Below are positions 42,040 through 55,248 of a DNA stretch of 64,000 nt, piece after piece. Source of the stretch: Actinobacteria bacterium IMCC26207. Lineage in GTDB: Bacteria > Actinomycetota > Acidimicrobiia > Acidimicrobiales > Microtrichaceae. The notes beneath the pieces are model-generated. The model worked only from the letters and a program-made list of their open reading frames with translations. It was not told the DNA's origin and searched no databases. The stretch lies in NCBI GenBank assembly GCA_001025035.1, contig LCZK01000009.1, positions 620,001 to 684,000 on the forward strand, read 5' to 3'. Position 1 is the stretch's first letter, and each line of letters starts with the position of its first letter. The position numbers were made by a program, and so were the translations under genes.

Positions 42040-43638
42040 CTACATCCCCGGCATGGATTCAGACATTGAGGTAGTGCTCTCTTCAGAGCCTGCCGGTGGG
42101 GGTCCACCGTTTTCTGTCACGTCGACAACGGCCATCATCCCGTGGTCCTCATGGGCCAAAATATGGCAGTGGAACACGAACTTTCCGACGTAGTCGGTAA
42201 AGGCCATACGAATAACGACTTCCCCTTTAGCGGGTAATCGAACAACGTCTTGCAGGCTGAGCGGCGGTATCGCCACGCCATTCACGGACATCACTTGGAA
42301 GTCATTGACATGAATGTGGAAGGGGTGTTCCTCGTTCGTGACGTTCTTAATGGTCCACTCCTCAGTGGTGCCGAGTTTGGGATAAAAGGCAACGCTCCCC
42401 ATCTCGAACTGCTTGCCGTTGATAAAGAACTTGGACTCGGATTCCTTCTCGCTAAAGACCACTTCGCGGCGCTGCGCAATCTCTGCGTTCTCAAGGTCAG
42501 GAGTCGGTGCGAGTGAGGTTGGCAGTGCCTTAGCCGGCACTGGGTCACCCTCGACCTTGACTGTGGCAAGGGTGCGAAGCGGGTAGCTATCACCATCTGG
42601 CCCTGTTTGATACGGAAGCGTGACCAACTTGAATGACCCGGGCTCGTCCCAGCGCATGAGCACGTCATAGCGCTTACCCGGAGGCAACAGCAGAGTGTCT
42701 TTGGACCAGACAGTGCCAACAGGATTGGAATCCTCGACAACAACGTTGAACGAAGCTCCCTCCATCTTCAGCTTGTACCAAATGTCTGCGCTCATATTGC
42801 CCAGTCGCAGAAGCTGGGTTTCGCCAGGCTGGGCTGTGAGTACCGGGTTCACTAATCCATTGACGGTGCGCGTTGTGGGTGCGCCGCTGTCGATGTCTTT
42901 GGTCTGAATGGCTGTGCCGCTTTCATCAAGTTGCAGATCTCTGAGGGCAAGAAGATGCTCAGGAGCCGAGCGCAGATCCTCTGGCAGAAGCTCAGTCAGT
43001 CCGGTCACAACAAGGGCACCTACTAGCCCCGAGAACACTTGCGCCTCGGTGTCTCCGTGCATGTGAGCGTGGTACCAGTAAGTCCCCGGACTAATCGTTG
43101 TTGGTACTTGGATTTCGACCAGATTCTCAGTCCCAGGAGCCATGACCCGAAGGACATTGTCCGAGATTCCAATCGGAGAGACGTGCATCCCGTGAGTGTG
43201 AAAGTTGGTTGCGTCGTTCAGGCCGTTATTTAGGTTGATCCGAATCAGGTCGCCAGGGTTAACCAACAAAGTTGGCCCCGTGAACTCCCCGGCATAACTC
43301 ATGCCTTTGACTTGTTTGCCTGCTACATCAAAGACGGTTGGCTTGGTATCAAACGTGGTCTCGAGCACTCCAGCGCTGCTCTTGATGACCGGCGGTTCGC
43401 TAAAGGGAAGGCCCTGAGTTGTAGCAAACGTTGTCTCGACAATTTCGCCACCGTCGGCAGTGGTTGTGGAACCTGCGCCAGGGTCAACGGTTGTGGTCGA
43501 GGCAGTGCTCGCCGTAGTTGAGGAACTGTCAGAGCCGCTAGAACACCCAGGCAGGACGGTGCCTGCGATAGCAGCGCAGGCAAGCGTGGCTGCAATTACG
43601 AAACTGGTTCGAGGTGTCCTACTTTGGGAACGAATCAT
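42040..43638 (-). CDS. Multicopper oxidase lipoprotein
   Basis: A 532-residue exported oxidase. Signal with lipobox TVLPGCSS, Thr/Ser linker, three cupredoxin domains. All copper sites are present: NFHTHGMHVS, YWYHAHMHG, HPFHIHVNDFQV and HCHILAHEDHGMM, so it should be active. The ATG at 43638 gives a normal signal peptide; the longer frame adds unrelated residues. Related to CueO/SufI-like laccases; substrate (copper, manganese or organic) unknown. C-terminus is Met/Ser-rich (TTSMSESMPGM). Confidence 0.93.
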   Translation of the reverse strand: MIRSQSRTPRTSFVIAATLACAAIAGTVLPGCSSGSDSSSTTASTASTTTVDPGAGSTTTADGGEIVETTFATTQGLPFSEPPVIKSSAGVLETTFDTKPTVFDVAGKQVKGMSYAGEFTGPTLLVNPGDLIRINLNNGLNDATNFHTHGMHVSPIGISDNVLRVMAPGTENLVEIQVPTTISPGTYWYHAHMHGDTEAQVFSGLVGALVVTGLTELLPEDLRSAPEHLLALRDLQLDESGTAIQTKDIDSGAPTTRTVNGLVNPVLTAQPGETQLLRLGNMSADIWYKLKMEGASFNVVVEDSNPVGTVWSKDTLLLPPGKRYDVLMRWDEPGSFKLVTLPYQTGPDGDSYPLRTLATVKVEGDPVPAKALPTSLAPTPDLENAEIAQRREVVFSEKESESKFFINGKQFEMGSVAFYPKLGTTEEWTIKNVTNEEHPFHIHVNDFQVMSVNGVAIPPLSLQDVVRLPAKGEVVIRMAFTDYVGKFVFHCHILAHEDHGMMAVVDVTENGGPPPAGSEESTTSMSESMPGM

Positions 43639-43688
43639 GGCGATATGGTACTCAACCCAGGCAGGCAGACCGAGCACCCGCTGCCCGG

Positions 43689-46271
43689 CTACGTGGCCAC
43701 CGGCCTAGCAGTGGGAACCCTGCTGAGCTGAGTTGACCACCAAGATTCGACCCGCTCAGCAACGGCGTCGAGTTCGCTCTGCTCAAGCCAAGAGCGGACC
43801 TGATCAAGGCGTGCTGCGATTTCTGGAGCCGTTGCATCTGCCGCAATGCTCATGCTTCCTGGGAACCCCGCTAAGGCCGACAAACCCTCGGCTTTGAGTC
43901 GGTAATACTCTGAGTCAACGACCAGCAATGCCGGCGTGTTGGCCTGCAACGCCCAAAGCGCTAAGTGATACGAGTGCGTGACCACGAATGATGCTCGCGA
44001 CAGCAGACCAATGGTCAGCTCAACGGATTGGCCGGTATCGATCACTCTCCAAGGGGCAGCAAGATTCGCAGTCCTAGCAATGCCCGCAAGTAGTTCCGCT
44101 TCTGCTGGCGGATTGTTGTTGACTGCAAGCCCGAGCACACTCAAGTTGGATTCAACCCCAAGTTGGTCCACCGCCGCTGCCAGGTCGCCTAGTTGGGTGC
44201 TACCAACATAGGAAGCCTCGCGAGCATGGAACACCAAGAATTCCCCGTCTGGAACTAGAGCCGACCGAAGCACCTGATCTAGCAGTTGCGAGTCGGCTTC
44301 CGCAGGAGGATTAGCTGTGACTGCAGACCTATCTCTTACTGCAGACGCATCCCTGACTGCAGACGCATCCCTGACTGCAGACGCATCCCTGACTGCAGAC
44401 ATAGCATCGTCGCCAACTAACTCAACCTTGCCGGGCTGCTGGGACTCGATCAGTTTCGTCGAGCCTGCATCCCGACAGCCGAATGCTTGGGCCTGGCTAG
44501 CCATCAACTGAACAAGCAGGAGTTCCTGTGCGTCGCAGGGTCCGACCCCCTGACCAGATACAACCACCGGAACCCCAGCAGCCGACAAACACAGCGAGAG
44601 TGCGACCCGCGGCCGCAGCAGATTCTGAGCAAAGGCAGAGGCGAGGTTGCCGCCGCCAAGAAAAAATGCGCCTTGGTAACTACCCAAATTCAGCAATGGC
44701 GGGGTGGCCTGCGCAGCAGAAATCTGTTCGGCAGTTACCTGCCCTTGGCTCAGATCAGCACCTCTGCTGAGTTCCTCTGGGCGCAACCCAGTCCAAGCCT
44801 GGAGTACGGTCCCAATCCAAGCCACGGGTTGTCCGCCCATTTGTGGAAGAGCCCGATCTGAAATCATCTCGATTCGACAGTCTGGGAATGCCCGGCGAAT
44901 CCGCTGCACAGCACACGCGCTGATTGCATCATCGCCAATGTTGCCGACCCCACCTGGAGCAACCACCAAGATTCGGGGCCCGCTTGGAGATGGCGCAACG
45001 GGCTGAGCCGCAGTAGTCAGAGGAACGCCAACTCGGGCTTCGGCGCTAGCAGATGCCCACAGAATACCAGTGGCGGGATGTGCGCCGAACAACAGGAACT
45101 GCTCAAAATCTGGGTCGTCATACAAGTAGCGGCGGGCGATCCGATTCTCGACACTTTTGTGATCGGCTGCAGTTGTGCTGTGACGCAGCAACGTCTTGCG
45201 GTAGTAGCCCAGCACGGCCGGAACAAACGCCACTGGCTTTCCTTGTCGAAGCGTTCGTAGGAGCAGTTCAAGATCATCGGCAACCCCGGCGAGTTGCGGG
45301 TCGGTTGAGTAACCACCGGCATTCAACACACTCTCAACATCGATGATGGCCATCGAATCGAAGCAGTACCCATTGCGAAGGCTCCACGGAGATGGTGCAT
45401 AGGCGAAGGCATCCCACTCGGCCCGAATCCCAGCTTCAGACTCGGTCGAGGCCAAGACATGCCCAAAGGTGATAGCGGCTCGGTGTGTCGCAGCCACTTC
45501 GTAGACCTGGGCCACACCTGCGGGAGACAACCGATTATCCGCATCAAGAATGACGGCATGAGTGGTAGGGCATGCGGCGAGTAGGGCATTTCGCGCCCGG
45601 GTCAGACTGAGGTTTACCTTGGAGCGAATGACAAGAATCCTGGAATCCTCATTCAGGGATTCAAGCAGCATCGCAGTCTCGTCGTTCGACGCATCGTCGA
45701 AGATCAGGATCTTCCCCGCAAGATGATCTGGTAGTAACTCGAGTGACTGCAGCGCCGAGTCGATTGCCCTTCGCAGCCATGCCCCATGGTTCCAGGTAAT
45801 GATCATCACGCTCAGGCCTTCGACTCTGAGTGTTGGTGCGGGTAGCCCTGCAATCAACTCGGCCAGGGCAGCATCCCGACTCGGGGCGAGCGTTGCTTCA
45901 AGGTCTACCCCAGCTGCGTGAATTGCCTGAGAAACCAAGCTGGAAAGTTCGCTGTGTCTTCTCTGAGCTAGCGAGTCAGAACTCACCTGCAAGGAATGCA
46001 ACTGCGCAAGCAATTCGGACTGCTGTTCGATGTGTTGCAAGAGCGGCTGCAACTGCGCCGTTTGGCTCTCTCGCGCCCAGGCAATCTCGGATTCGATGCG
46101 CTGCAAGCGAGCATGAAGCGACTCGATGAGCGCAGTCGTTTCTCCGGCTGTGGCCAAAAGAGAATGACTCGCTGAATCGAGATGCTGCGAGACCCGGTCG
46201 ATGCGTTCAGTGCGCGCAGGGATTCCCCGCAGTCGCGACAGCCAACCTCTCAGACCGCCCTGGCCGCTCAA
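43689..46271 (-). CDS. Fusion: coiled coil, GT2 glycosyltransferase and polysaccharide pyruvyl transferase
   Basis: An 860-residue protein of three parts. Residues 1-130 are helical/coiled coil. Residues ~153-400 are a GT-A glycosyltransferase (LSVMIITWNHGAWLRRAIDSAL, LIFDDASNDET, VILDADNRLSP with the DxD-like metal site, DDLELLLRTLRQG). Residues ~430-860 are a CsaB/WcaK-type pyruvyl transferase (RILVVAPGGVGNIGDDAI, FFLGGGNLASAF, VSGQGVGPCDAQE, FGCRDAGSTKLI, THSYHLALWALQ). A four-fold SAVRDA repeat interrupts the third part. The enzyme likely adds a sugar and pyruvyl group to a wall or capsular glycan. It overlaps the upstream PP-loop gene by 4 bp. Confidence 0.85.
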   Translation of the reverse strand: MSGQGGLRGWLSRLRGIPARTERIDRVSQHLDSASHSLLATAGETTALIESLHARLQRIESEIAWARESQTAQLQPLLQHIEQQSELLAQLHSLQVSSDSLAQRRHSELSSLVSQAIHAAGVDLEATLAPSRDAALAELIAGLPAPTLRVEGLSVMIITWNHGAWLRRAIDSALQSLELLPDHLAGKILIFDDASNDETAMLLESLNEDSRILVIRSKVNLSLTRARNALLAACPTTHAVILDADNRLSPAGVAQVYEVAATHRAAITFGHVLASTESEAGIRAEWDAFAYAPSPWSLRNGYCFDSMAIIDVESVLNAGGYSTDPQLAGVADDLELLLRTLRQGKPVAFVPAVLGYYRKTLLRHSTTAADHKSVENRIARRYLYDDPDFEQFLLFGAHPATGILWASASAEARVGVPLTTAAQPVAPSPSGPRILVVAPGGVGNIGDDAISACAVQRIRRAFPDCRIEMISDRALPQMGGQPVAWIGTVLQAWTGLRPEELSRGADLSQGQVTAEQISAAQATPPLLNLGSYQGAFFLGGGNLASAFAQNLLRPRVALSLCLSAAGVPVVVSGQGVGPCDAQELLLVQLMASQAQAFGCRDAGSTKLIESQQPGKVELVGDDAMSAVRDASAVRDASAVRDASAVRDRSAVTANPPAEADSQLLDQVLRSALVPDGEFLVFHAREASYVGSTQLGDLAAAVDQLGVESNLSVLGLAVNNNPPAEAELLAGIARTANLAAPWRVIDTGQSVELTIGLLSRASFVVTHSYHLALWALQANTPALLVVDSEYYRLKAEGLSALAGFPGSMSIAADATAPEIAARLDQVRSWLEQSELDAVAERVESWWSTQLSRVPTARPVAT
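44317..44401 (-). repeat. In-frame 18-bp repeats coding SAVRDA
   Basis: Four near-exact 18-bp units (CTGACTGCAGACGCATCC on the plus strand) inside the pyruvyl-transferase domain, coding SAVRDA on the gene strand. Length is a multiple of three. Confidence 0.92.
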
Positions 46272-47947
46272 GACGCTGCGGTCTTCGCTAGATACTCAGA
46301 GGTAACCGGCGGGCCGAGTACAGCGAGTTGAACCGCTGCCCGAAAGATCTGTTGGAGCTCTTCATCAGTCGGAATTCCCTGCTCAATCTGCTGCGTGCCA
46401 CGCAGGAGTGGCCAAGCCCAGACGGGAAGCTCAGATCTCACAAGTTTCAGCTGTTCCTCGTGCATCAATTGAATGGGCGCACACCCATGCTCAATTGCCT
46501 CGGTCAAACGAATGCCATCGAGAAACGCGTCCTCGCTGAACCAACAGCGCAATTTGGATGCCCTCAAGAGCCTAGAAACCGCACCCGGTGGAACACCAGA
46601 AATCTCTGCGTCAACAATGAGGACTGCACCCGGTAGCCAGTGATCCGTCAGCTCAGCAGCTAACTCAACTGACCCTGAACCCTTGCGATCAGTCAGACAC
46701 CAGTCAATCGGTCGTTGAACGTCCACACTCAGCGCGCATAACGCATGACGATGTTCGAGCGGCAGCGGGATACTGCGAGCGTTGCTACCCCAACCAACTA
46801 ACTCCTGGGGGCTAACTGAACCCCCGGCCGTAGCAAATCTGGCAGCAGGGTCAAGCCCTGCGAGGCCACGTCGGTCTCCGTTTGCGATCCGGGAGAGGTA
46901 ATCCTCCCAGGCCTGTCGAAGGACAACGTGATCCTCGCCAATTGCGTCGACGACTTGCGCCAAGGCCACTGCCGGACTGGGTCCGCCAAGCTGACGAATC
47001 GCCTCGGGGTTGAACGGTTCATCAAAAGCAGACTCAACAAGGTCAGCCGCGCCAACCAACTCAAAACAAGTCATGGTGTGTAGGCACTTCAGACACCTTC
47101 CGCAGTTCCTGCGTGTATTGCCCTGCCAACACACTTTGAGCGCCACTGCTAGATCTGGTCGAGTTGCGACAACAGCGGCCTTTTGCACACGACCCATATC
47201 TGGGTGAACGGCAACTACTTGAGTGGTAGCGGTTGACCACATCGGATCAAGGCGGGCGCTACTGCCATGCGGGCCATCGTGCGCAGCGTCAACAGTCTGA
47301 GAAATGCTGAGTCTGTCCAACATGGGACCCAGAACAAGTGCGGTCCCTAGTAGCACTGCCCCGTGCGTCTCCCCCCACGGAAGAAACCTGTCGGCCTCGT
47401 CCCGGAGATTTGTCCTGAGTCGAATCAACGGCAGACCCACCGAGTCAGCCACTGCTTGCGTGTCGGCCCAAATTTGAGCACCGAGCCGCGGCGAGTGATT
47501 CGGCTCGAGGCCATCGACACCAATGAGCTGCGTGACTGCTGGCGCAGACCCATCAAGCGCAGCAACTAGCGATGCAGTTGAATCAACGCCGCGGGTAAAG
47601 AGCAGCCCTGACTGCCCATGTTCCCCAGTGGGCACCTCGGCTGTCTCGACAGCTACCTGAATGTTTGGAACAGACCAGCCCCACCACTCGGCAAAGAGTT
47701 CTGCCGCCGAGCGCAGGCCATCAAGCTGTGCTGGCGAAATAGCTTGGTCGATCTGAAGGTCTTCGCCCAGAAATGAGCAGAGCACCGTGGCGAGGGGTAA
47801 AAAAGGAACCACGCTTGGAGCTACAAACCGAACGAACTCCGAGGGCGCACCAATTTGCCAGGACCGCTCTTTGCCAGAAATCACCACACCACAAACGAGC
47901 CGAACCTGATCCTGATCAAGAGAGAGACTTGGCTCAAAGACCCGCAC
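46268..47947 (-). CDS. PP-loop ATPase-like protein with Cys cluster (MurL/QueC-like architecture)
   Basis: A 559-residue protein I cannot name with certainty. Around residue 112 is LLFTRGVDSTASLVAAL, a variant of the SGGxDS PP-loop of ATP-pyrophosphatases, with the pyrophosphate-binding Ser-Gly replaced by Thr-Arg. Near residue 290 is CWQGNTRRNCGRCLKC, a zinc-type cysteine cluster as in QueC and MurL-like proteins. The C-terminal third (VELAAELTDHW, RCWFSEDAFLDGIRLTEAIEHGCAPIQLM) resembles the donor half of a glycosyltransferase. It is coupled (4 bp) to the GT2-pyruvyltransferase fusion, so a joint role in a cell-surface glycan is likely. GTG start. Confidence 0.7.
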   Translation of the reverse strand: MRVFEPSLSLDQDQVRLVCGVVISGKERSWQIGAPSEFVRFVAPSVVPFLPLATVLCSFLGEDLQIDQAISPAQLDGLRSAAELFAEWWGWSVPNIQVAVETAEVPTGEHGQSGLLFTRGVDSTASLVAALDGSAPAVTQLIGVDGLEPNHSPRLGAQIWADTQAVADSVGLPLIRLRTNLRDEADRFLPWGETHGAVLLGTALVLGPMLDRLSISQTVDAAHDGPHGSSARLDPMWSTATTQVVAVHPDMGRVQKAAVVATRPDLAVALKVCWQGNTRRNCGRCLKCLHTMTCFELVGAADLVESAFDEPFNPEAIRQLGGPSPAVALAQVVDAIGEDHVVLRQAWEDYLSRIANGDRRGLAGLDPAARFATAGGSVSPQELVGWGSNARSIPLPLEHRHALCALSVDVQRPIDWCLTDRKGSGSVELAAELTDHWLPGAVLIVDAEISGVPPGAVSRLLRASKLRCWFSEDAFLDGIRLTEAIEHGCAPIQLMHEEQLKLVRSELPVWAWPLLRGTQQIEQGIPTDEELQQIFRAAVQLAVLGPPVTSEYLAKTAAS

Positions 47948-53750: not shown

Positions 53751-54905
53751 TTATGTGCCGGCTAGCACAACAACCGGCACATTCGAATCGGTGTTGGTTC
53801 CGTCGCCCAACTGCCCGGAGGCGTTGACCCCCCAACACTTCATCGCGCCACCAGCAACCAACGCACACACGTGGTAAGCACCGGCTGTGATTTTGGTAGC
53901 GCCCGACACACCAACCACACCAACCGGCACACTCGAATCGGTGTAGGTTCCGTCGCCCAACATCCCGTTACCGTTGGACCCCCAACACTTCACCGCGCCA
54001 CCAGCAACCACAGCACACGAATTGAACTCACCGGCTGCGATTTTGGTAGCACCCGACACACCAACCACACCAACCGGCACACTCGAACTGGTGGTGGTTC
54101 CGTCACCCAACCCCCCGTAGTAGTTGTCCCCCCAACACTTCACCGCACCACCAGCAACCAACGCACACGTATGGTTGTAACCGGCTGAGATTTGGGTTGC
54201 ACCCGACACACCAACCACACCAACCGGCACACTCGAATCGGTGGTGGTTCCGTCACCCAACTGCCCGGAGTTGTTGTCCCCCCAACACTTCACCGCGCCA
54301 CCAGCAACCAACGCACACGCAAGGTTTCTGCCGGCTGAGATTTGGGTTGCACCCGACACACCTACCACACCAACCGGCACACTCGAATCGGTGGTAGTTC
54401 CGTCACCCAACCCCCCGTAGCTGTTGTCCCCCCAACACTTCACCGCGCCACCAGCAACCAACGCACACGAACGGTTGCCACCGGCTGAGATCGTGGTAGC
54501 ACCCGTAACACCAACCACACCAACCGGCACACTCGAACTGGTGGTGGTTCCGTCACCCAACTGCCCGTAGTTGTTGTCCCCCCAACACTTCACCGCGCCA
54601 CCAGCAACCAACGCACACGAATGGTTGTAGCCGGCTGAGATTTGGGTTGCACCCGACACACCAACCACACCAACCGGCACACTCGAATCGGTGTAGGTTC
54701 CGTCACCCAACTGCCCGGAGTAGTCGTCCCCCCAACACTTCTCCGCGCCGCCAGCAACCAACGCACACGAATAGGAGCCAGCGGCTGAGATTTGGGTAGC
54801 ACCCGACAGAGTTGGCCCCGGTGGAGGTACCACGGGTGCGCATGCAACAACTGCAAGTAAGCAAGCAAAAACAACAACAGCGAACAGCGTACGGAACTTG
54901 ACCAT
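53751..54905 (-). CDS. Seven-repeat RCC1-type beta-propeller lipoprotein
   Basis: A 384-residue exported protein: signal with lipobox LLAVVACAP, then seven 50-residue RCC1-like repeats (consensus [20 protein letters not shown], [17 protein letters not shown], [13 protein letters not shown]). Seven repeats make a full propeller. Repeats are nearly identical, also at DNA level, and differ mainly at five positions around AGxxxxC and WGxxxxG. Each has two cysteines. The ATG at 54905 follows GGAGGGG. Function unknown; surface binding or adhesion is plausible. Confidence 0.88.
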
Positions 54906-55248
54906 CTCCGATACCCCTCCCAAACCTTAGAGAACAGCACATCCAGCGAACCAGAAACATCGTCCTAGCCCATACCCCGGTTTCGGTTTAGCACTCACAG
55001 CTTCAAACCACAACCCCCATCAACTCATTTCGTCTTGCGCCTGACCCCTTATAGGGGGTCGCTCGCATAACAGAGCGGGGTAATGGGTGGAGGGCGAGCG
55101 AAAGCCCCTCTGGAATCAGCTGGGTCAGTATCCGGCAGAGTTTGCAGCCCGAAGGATGAGGTCGCCGAGCGCCTCTAAGTCCATGTCAGCGGTAGGAACT
55201 TCGGGTAGGGGTGAAGCTCTTTATAACTACTGGGGCCTAGGGGTGCTG
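54906..55248. other. Intergenic region with repeat copy 4 and a short fragment
   Basis: Holds palindromic repeat copy 4. On the minus strand, 55125-55220 reads an in-frame 31-codon tail ending MDLEALGDLILRAANSAGY then stop, with no start or family; possibly the end of a lost gene. Nothing else seen. Confidence 0.4.
55022..55080. repeat. Palindromic repeat, copy 4
   Basis: AACTCATTTCGTCTTGCG left arm, core GACCCCTTATAGGGGGTC, right arm GCTCGCATAACAGAGCGGGG. Downstream of the PIN toxin gene and upstream of the RCC1 gene. Confidence 0.95.

Follow-up and report, generated by a model that had tools for sequence, protein, structure and literature searches.

Two overlapping genes of Actinobacteria bacterium IMCC26207 encode a predicted glycosyltransferase-pyruvyl transferase fusion (P1) and a predicted PP-loop ATPase of the QueC/QatC type (P2). 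They are located in the window, which is the whole stretch of 64,000 nucleotides that was analysed. It is possible, rather than probable, that the two genes form one functional unit for surface-glycan modification, in which P2 would adenylate a carboxylate on the glycan of P1 and lead to an amide-type product. A literature search, with most subscription journals outside it, returned no paper that joins a pyruvyl transferase (PST) with a PP-loop protein and none that mentions DUF6395. The accessible part of a 2026 survey of the QueC superfamily, which covers QueC, QatC, Cap9, LarE, WbpG, GMPS, and a purine-salvage cluster, also mentions no link to a pyruvyl transferase. The pairing of P2 with a PST appears to be undescribed in the literature that was found.

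A first-pass annotation of the window had suggested an undescribed surface-polymer modification with a possible link to S-layer-type anchoring. The first part is in keeping with the glycan context and the pairing of an ATPase with a pyruvyl transferase. The S-layer link was dropped, as no PF00395 (SLH) match was found in the organism’s own genome, which is 92.7% complete.

Layout and surroundings of the gene pair

Both open reading frames were confirmed on the minus strand at the positions claimed earlier (Table 1), and they have 4 bp in common. At the same overlap, GTGA is present in three congeneric relatives and in two more, and ATGA is present in one relative from another genus. Since the 4-bp overlap is kept in relatives with GTG or ATG starts, the TTG start of P1 is supported. 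The kept overlap also implies that P2 and P1 are probably translationally coupled.

According to a Pfam scan of the neighbours, the pair is flanked by genes for YccF, a multicopper oxidase, an HD protein, and a desaturase. It stands outside any larger glycan cluster in the window. The multicopper oxidase gene (42040-43677) follows P1 and is also found in the congeneric genome G008 (92% over 51 aa). A pair of PST and PP-loop genes in Azospirillum is likewise flanked by a multicopper oxidase, possibly by chance. Elsewhere in the window, 53751-54923 encodes a protein with repeated units that by eye resembles an RCC1-like repeat lipoprotein.

Table 1. Positions of the two genes and their features in the window
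Feature	Position	Strand	Remark
P1: coiled coil, GT2 glycosyltransferase, and polysaccharide (ketal) pyruvyl transferase	43689..46271	-	860 aa, TTG start
P2: QueC/QatC-like PP-loop ATPase	46268..47947	-	559 aa, GTG start
TTGA overlap	46268..46271	-	P2 stop TGA, P1 start TTG; GTGA or ATGA in most relatives
P2 N-terminal extension, residues 1-105	47633..47947	-	within structural match to QatC
P2 PP-loop, T118-R-G-V-D-S123	47579..47596	-	
P2 four-Cys (predicted Zn) site, C273-x8-C282-x2-C285-x2-C288	47084..47131	-	
P2 C-terminal domain, residues 331-559	46271..46957	-	unknown fold
P1 heptad-rich (coiled-coil) N-terminus, residues 1-145	45837..46271	-	from sequence; no enzymatic family matched
P1 GT2 (GT-A) domain, PF00535, residues 154-284	45420..45812	-	DXD is D243-A-D245
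P1 pyruvyl transferase domain, PF04230, residues 444-784	43920..44942	-	
18-bp tandem repeat in P1 (4.6 copies)	44318..44400	-	encodes SAVRDA repeats; absent from G008 relative

Predicted folds and motifs of the two proteins

The earlier claim that P1 joins a coiled coil, a GT-A transferase, and a CsaB-type pyruvyl transferase in one chain was borne out, and all three domains were found. The match to PF00535 (GT2) has an E-value of 1e-17. The match to PF04230 (PS_pyruv_trans) has an E-value of 6e-22 and a score of 79.2 bits against a cut-off of 25.3. Bacterial pyruvyl transferases carry a signature of NxGD, RxxxS/T, and H motifs. In P1, these are N444xGD447, R600xxxS604, and H769, and K793 is located just past the PF04230 match. 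CsaB requires R148, H308, and K328 as critical residues for PEP, and its R306 is a predicted PEP contact. R600, H769, and K793 of P1 correspond to the three critical residues, and the PEP-binding R, H, and K are thus kept. Ser767 takes the place of R306, as it does in the PSTs of the other class I pairs described below.

A PST profile matches Pvg1p (5ax7, E-value of 3.5e-42) and WbbZ (6x1l, E-value of 1.7e-15). P1 scores below the cut-off of the CsaB equivalog TIGR03609 (32 bits vs 213.1). The C-terminal part of P1 is a predicted ketal-pyruvyl transferase of the CsaB/Pvg1p/WbbZ type, as the first-pass annotation had it. It is like these enzymes in the NxGD, RxxxS, H, and K residues of the domain and unlike them in its fusion to a GT2 domain and coiled coil, in the Ser at the R306 position, and in having a PP-loop protein as partner. 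The 18-bp repeat in P1 is in frame and is likely variable in length.

Pfam matches of P2 are weak, with DUF6395 (PF19932) just below its cut-off (E-value of 5e-5) and QueC at an E-value of about 1. The AF2 model of P2 has pLDDT values of mostly 75-95 over residues 1-320 and is of low confidence beyond 358. A strand (112-116), a loop (117-120), and a helix (121-132) place the PP-loop after the first strand of the core sheet. When the model was compared with VIA-align, QatC was the best match (Z 15.1 over 290 residues, model 1-389), followed by QueC (13.5) and Cap9 (13.3), and then LarE, TilS, and MnmA. NAD synthetase, GMPS, and ArtA were also matched, and these are PP-loop enzymes that form amides or nitriles. 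Plain Foldseek found nothing with an E-value below 0.001 for the model, the best being MnmA, and the structural claim therefore rests on VIA-align together with the profile.

A profile of the trimmed P2 core was in register at the PP-loop with QatC, GMPS, MnmA, QueC, LarE, and TilS from the PDB. QatC and QueC were also in register at the Cys cluster. The single E-values of this profile are weak (0.007 to 3.5), and most of the matches point to one superfamily. The full-length P2 profile brought up pyridoxal-phosphate homeostasis proteins. These were rejected as an artefact of the C-terminal tail, and they disappeared with the trimmed core. From the model and the profile, the N-terminal 320 or so residues of P2 are predicted to adopt the QueC/QatC fold of PP-loop ATP pyrophosphatases and to retain the full four-Cys site. 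This agrees with the QueC-type ATPase claimed earlier, and a PP-loop fold is indeed present in the modelled structure.

Cys273, 282, 285, and 288 are present in the cluster CWQGNTRRNCGRCLKC. G120, D122, S123, R253, C273, N281, C282, C285, K287, and C288 are invariant across 22 relatives of P2, so the PP-loop and Cys motifs are not due to chance. The NCGRCLKC cluster, which had been called QueC/MurL-like, has four invariant cysteines and the spacing of QueC. The loop itself was described as degenerate. TRGVDS does differ from SGGxDS in having T for S and R for the first G, with D and S kept; the relatives of class II have the canonical SGGVDS. However, the first Gly varies among P2 relatives (G, R, A, S, L, or C): class I and the Q paralogues described below have Arg, and some others have A, S, L, or C. 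The loop is thus variable at this position and not broken, and the RG-type loop appears as a conserved mark of its class instead of a sign of decay. In QatC, the side chains of S156, D160, and S161 hold the ATP phosphates, and T118, D122, and S123 of P2 correspond to these. The change from Gly to Arg could lower the ATPase activity of P2.

The C-terminal domain of P2 matched no Pfam family and no PDB chain. It gave an hhalign probability of 0.35% against a GT4 profile and 0.1% against a PST profile, and the isolated domain was modelled by AF2 with a mean pLDDT of 38. A glycosyltransferase-like C-terminus, as had been suggested, was rejected on the missing Pfam and PDB matches, the GT4 value, and the low-confidence model. 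Among the loci compared, these 230 residues are found exactly in the genomes with a GT2-PST partner and only in the class with an RG-type PP-loop.

P2 shares with QatC (qatABCD anti-phage defence; PDB 9y02/9y01) the PP-loop fold, the Cys cluster, and the N-terminal extension. Unlike QatC, it has an RG-type loop, the extra 230-aa C-terminal domain, and a GT2-pyruvyl transferase partner. There are no qatA, qatB, or qatD genes beside P2, where the neighbours are P1, the multicopper oxidase, and YccF. A role in anti-phage defence was rejected, as there was no PADLOC match for P2.

With QueC (PF06508; PDB 3bl5/2pg3), P2 has in common the PP-loop ATPase core and the C-x8-C-x2-C-x2-C cluster, and it scores below the PF06508 cut-off (9.3 bits vs 22). 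QueC binds 7-deazaguanine with a YPDC motif. P2 is without YPDC and has in its place a family-specific motif of the GSxPxLDPxWS type around residues 228-238, and so its substrate is probably not 7-carboxy-7-deazaguanine. Its partner, in addition, is a glycan enzyme. P2 was rejected as the genome’s own QueC. The other PF06508 matches in the genome resemble TilS, MnmA, NadE, AsnB, GuaA, LarE, ArgG, and CysH by sequence.

WbpG/NASAT enzymes are PP-loop N-acetyl sugar amidotransferases with a four-Cys Zn site, and their tetracysteine motif is CxxCxn[GN]xCxxC. P2 is like WbpG and LpNASAT in its PP-loop, four-Cys site, and glycan setting. It differs in the spacing of the Cys residues, WbpG is not among the matches of the P2 family, and the accessible portion of the literature on WbpG and LpNASAT contains no pyruvyl transferase link. 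DUF6395 aligned with the P2 family at an hhalign probability of 95.6% and has PP-loop and CxxCxKC motifs. DUF6395 itself turns out to be a PP-loop family, and it is a sister subfamily of P2, which falls below its threshold. In G361, four DUF6395 genes in tandem adjoin genes for an NAD epimerase and a glycosyltransferase (L112:2065-7686).

Distribution of the pair and its relatives

P2 was found in 9 of 33 genomes of the family, with key genes anchored by tblastn or HMM matches. P1 adjoins P2 wherever the contig is long enough, which is the case in the congeneric G008, G009, and G010 and in G004, G026, G030, and G031. In G029, the pair is split, with one half at the end of each of two contigs. 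A genome of a second family (G404) has the pair as well, and profile searches and Pfam scans throughout the taxonomic class bring in G515 and G727, likewise with a GT2-PST partner. Class I pairs occur in four families of the taxonomic class. The gene pair of the first-pass annotation is thus conserved in other genomes of the genus and family and in other families.

In one genus, a second and shorter RG-type PP-loop paralogue (Q) is located a few kb from the pair (L030, L032, L033, and L034). The Q paralogue of G026 overlaps a GNAT gene (Acetyltransf_6) in a divergent GT4 cluster. Two congeneric MAG records (L015 and L016) are titled ‘Bifidobacterium breve’ though they are nearly of the lineage of the window genome, and these titles look wrong.

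A PST is present within 5 kb of a PP-loop relative in 11 of 22 Actinomycetota loci, against 0.086 expected with PSTs placed at random, a null that overstates the significance since glycan genes cluster. For this reason, fusions and isolated units carry more weight. The Actinomycetota with a PST adjacent or within 5 kb are G361 (with a PHP-domain gene), G490, G515, G596, G605, G620, and G727. A PP-loop-PST fusion is found in G293 (L040), and a PST-PP-loop fusion of the opposite order is found in L047. The association extends to plasmids of three further phyla, where a gene annotated as a polysaccharide pyruvyl transferase accompanies the PP-loop gene, either directly beside it or close by. These are plasmids of Gemmobacter (two separate loci), Gloeothece (two species), Azospirillum, and Priestia, and the Azospirillum genes form an isolated two-gene unit in two records. 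About half of the PP-loop relatives, including several from Actinomycetota, are without a PST nearby, and the same is true of those of Nostoc and Halorientalis. Many clusters possess two or more PP-loop paralogues for a single PST.

A T4-like viral contig (L050:1518-4608) contains genes for a PP-loop protein, an FkbM methyltransferase, a PST-like protein, and a nucleotidyltransferase. UvsX/UvsY-like genes, named by eye from sequence, are upstream. This gene group is a phage glycan-modification cassette. Two queries against the phage GenBank collection gave no match.

The RG-type loop, the C-terminal domain, the GT2 fusion, and the PST of Ser767 type go together in the 8 class I pairs. Other pairs combine non-RG loops with PSTs that have Arg at the R306 position, with G293 as the exception. 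The PST of the Gemmobacter locus L052, which was outside the test, also has Ser at this position. A Mantel test of the PP-loop and PST distance matrices gave r 0.79 and p 2e-4, values in which shared ancestry is still included.

Proposed function and competing readings

The two proteins could act in sequence. P1 would add a sugar and then put a pyruvate ketal on that sugar or on its neighbour. P2 would spend ATP, releasing AMP and PPi, on the adenylation of a carboxylate of this glycan, and the simplest candidate is that of the new pyruvate ketal. Ammonia or another amine would capture the adenylate, giving an amide-type (possibly nitrile) decoration and removing the charge. In characterised enzymes of the QueC fold, adenylation of a carboxylate or amide is followed by the addition of ammonia or an amine. 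QueC takes a carboxylate to an amide and then to a nitrile, and sugars are the substrates of PP-loop enzymes of the WbpG/NASAT type. Because the PST is the recurring partner and brings one new carboxylate, it is this carboxylate that P2 is proposed to activate. No ammonia-supplying glutaminase was identified. The several PP-loop paralogues per PST count against the pyruvate-ketal step, as a single step does not need them, and so does the missing R306 equivalent of P1.

The more specific reading is that a QueC-fold enzyme derivatises the pyruvate-ketal carboxylate of a glycan, as an amide, nitrile, or amine conjugate. The two enzymes would then be a module that neutralises or caps pyruvylated surface sugars in several phyla and a phage. 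This is rated as doubtful. QueC-family enzymes are already seen to act far beyond queuosine, in protein deazaguanylation in CBASS and in qat defence. If the reading is true, a branch tied to glycan pyruvylation would bring carboxylate-activating chemistry into surface polysaccharides, and there would be a concrete and testable substrate for DUF6395 and for many genes annotated as hypothetical proteins. Because pyruvate ketals determine how surface glycans are charged and recognised, an editing enzyme would have consequences for phage receptors, immune epitopes, and protein anchoring. The unit, with its two genes, is of a size that permits reconstitution in vitro.

The main rival substrate is a uronic acid or an acetamido group of the same glycan. 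P2 would then amidate the uronic acid or turn the acetamido group to acetamidino, as WbpG/NASAT does. Such a target is somewhat doubtful as well. The relatives without a PST, which are in glycan clusters or elsewhere, suggest that the substrate of P2 may be another carboxylate, and the tandem DUF6395 paralogues of G361 beside a glycosyltransferase and an epimerase fit this, as does the sugar amidotransferase activity of four-Cys PP-loop enzymes of the WbpG type. However, the Cys motif of P2 fits QueC and differs from that of NASAT. PST fusions in both orders and the stand-alone units of Azospirillum, G361, and the window favor a chemistry tied to the PST.

It is unlikely that P2 of the RG class is catalytically dead and assists the GT2-PST protein as a scaffold or an allosteric subunit, with the C-terminal domain doing the work. 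The change of G to R in the loop, correlated with the altered PST site and the extra C-terminal domain, could be taken in this way. T118, D122, S123, and all four Cys are nevertheless kept, and RG-type loops persist across deep divergence and also occur in Q paralogues, which have no C-terminal domain.

It is quite improbable that glycan genes merely cluster here and that nothing specific ties the PP-loop protein to the PST. Large glycan clusters do house many of the relatives, and roughly half of all relatives lack a PST in the vicinity. Against this reading stand two independent fusions of opposite order, two-gene units that occur in isolation, overlaps of 4 bp, and the correlation among class features.

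There is only a slim chance that P2 modifies a protein, possibly the N-terminus of P1, as Cap9 and probably QatC modify theirs. QatC is the best structural match, its N-terminal extension included, and it complexes with its partner QatB. The partners of P2 and its relatives are instead glycan enzymes, often stand-alone PSTs without the N-terminal coil of P1. P1 homologues start with MS- and not with the N-terminal Gly motif required in Cap9/QatC substrates, and the PADLOC result is also against a protein target.

Least likely, and very improbable, is a role of P2 in peptidoglycan synthesis, where it would stand in for glutamate racemase as an ATP-dependent epimerase like MurL. The first-pass annotation had raised altered muropeptide stereochemistry, and the case for this is weak. 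In its favor, MurL converts ATP to AMP, and MurI (TIGR00067) is absent from 6 of 6 genomes of the genus (G000 and G007-G011), while 22 of 33 family genomes have it. Against it, P2 is patchy in the family and several MurI-less genomes are without it. The partner of P2 is a PST and not MurD2, its relatives travel with PSTs and not with MurD, and no MurD-like gene is among the scanned neighbours of P2. Of the five carriers outside the genus, four have MurI alongside P2, so P2 is unlikely to be the D-Glu enzyme.
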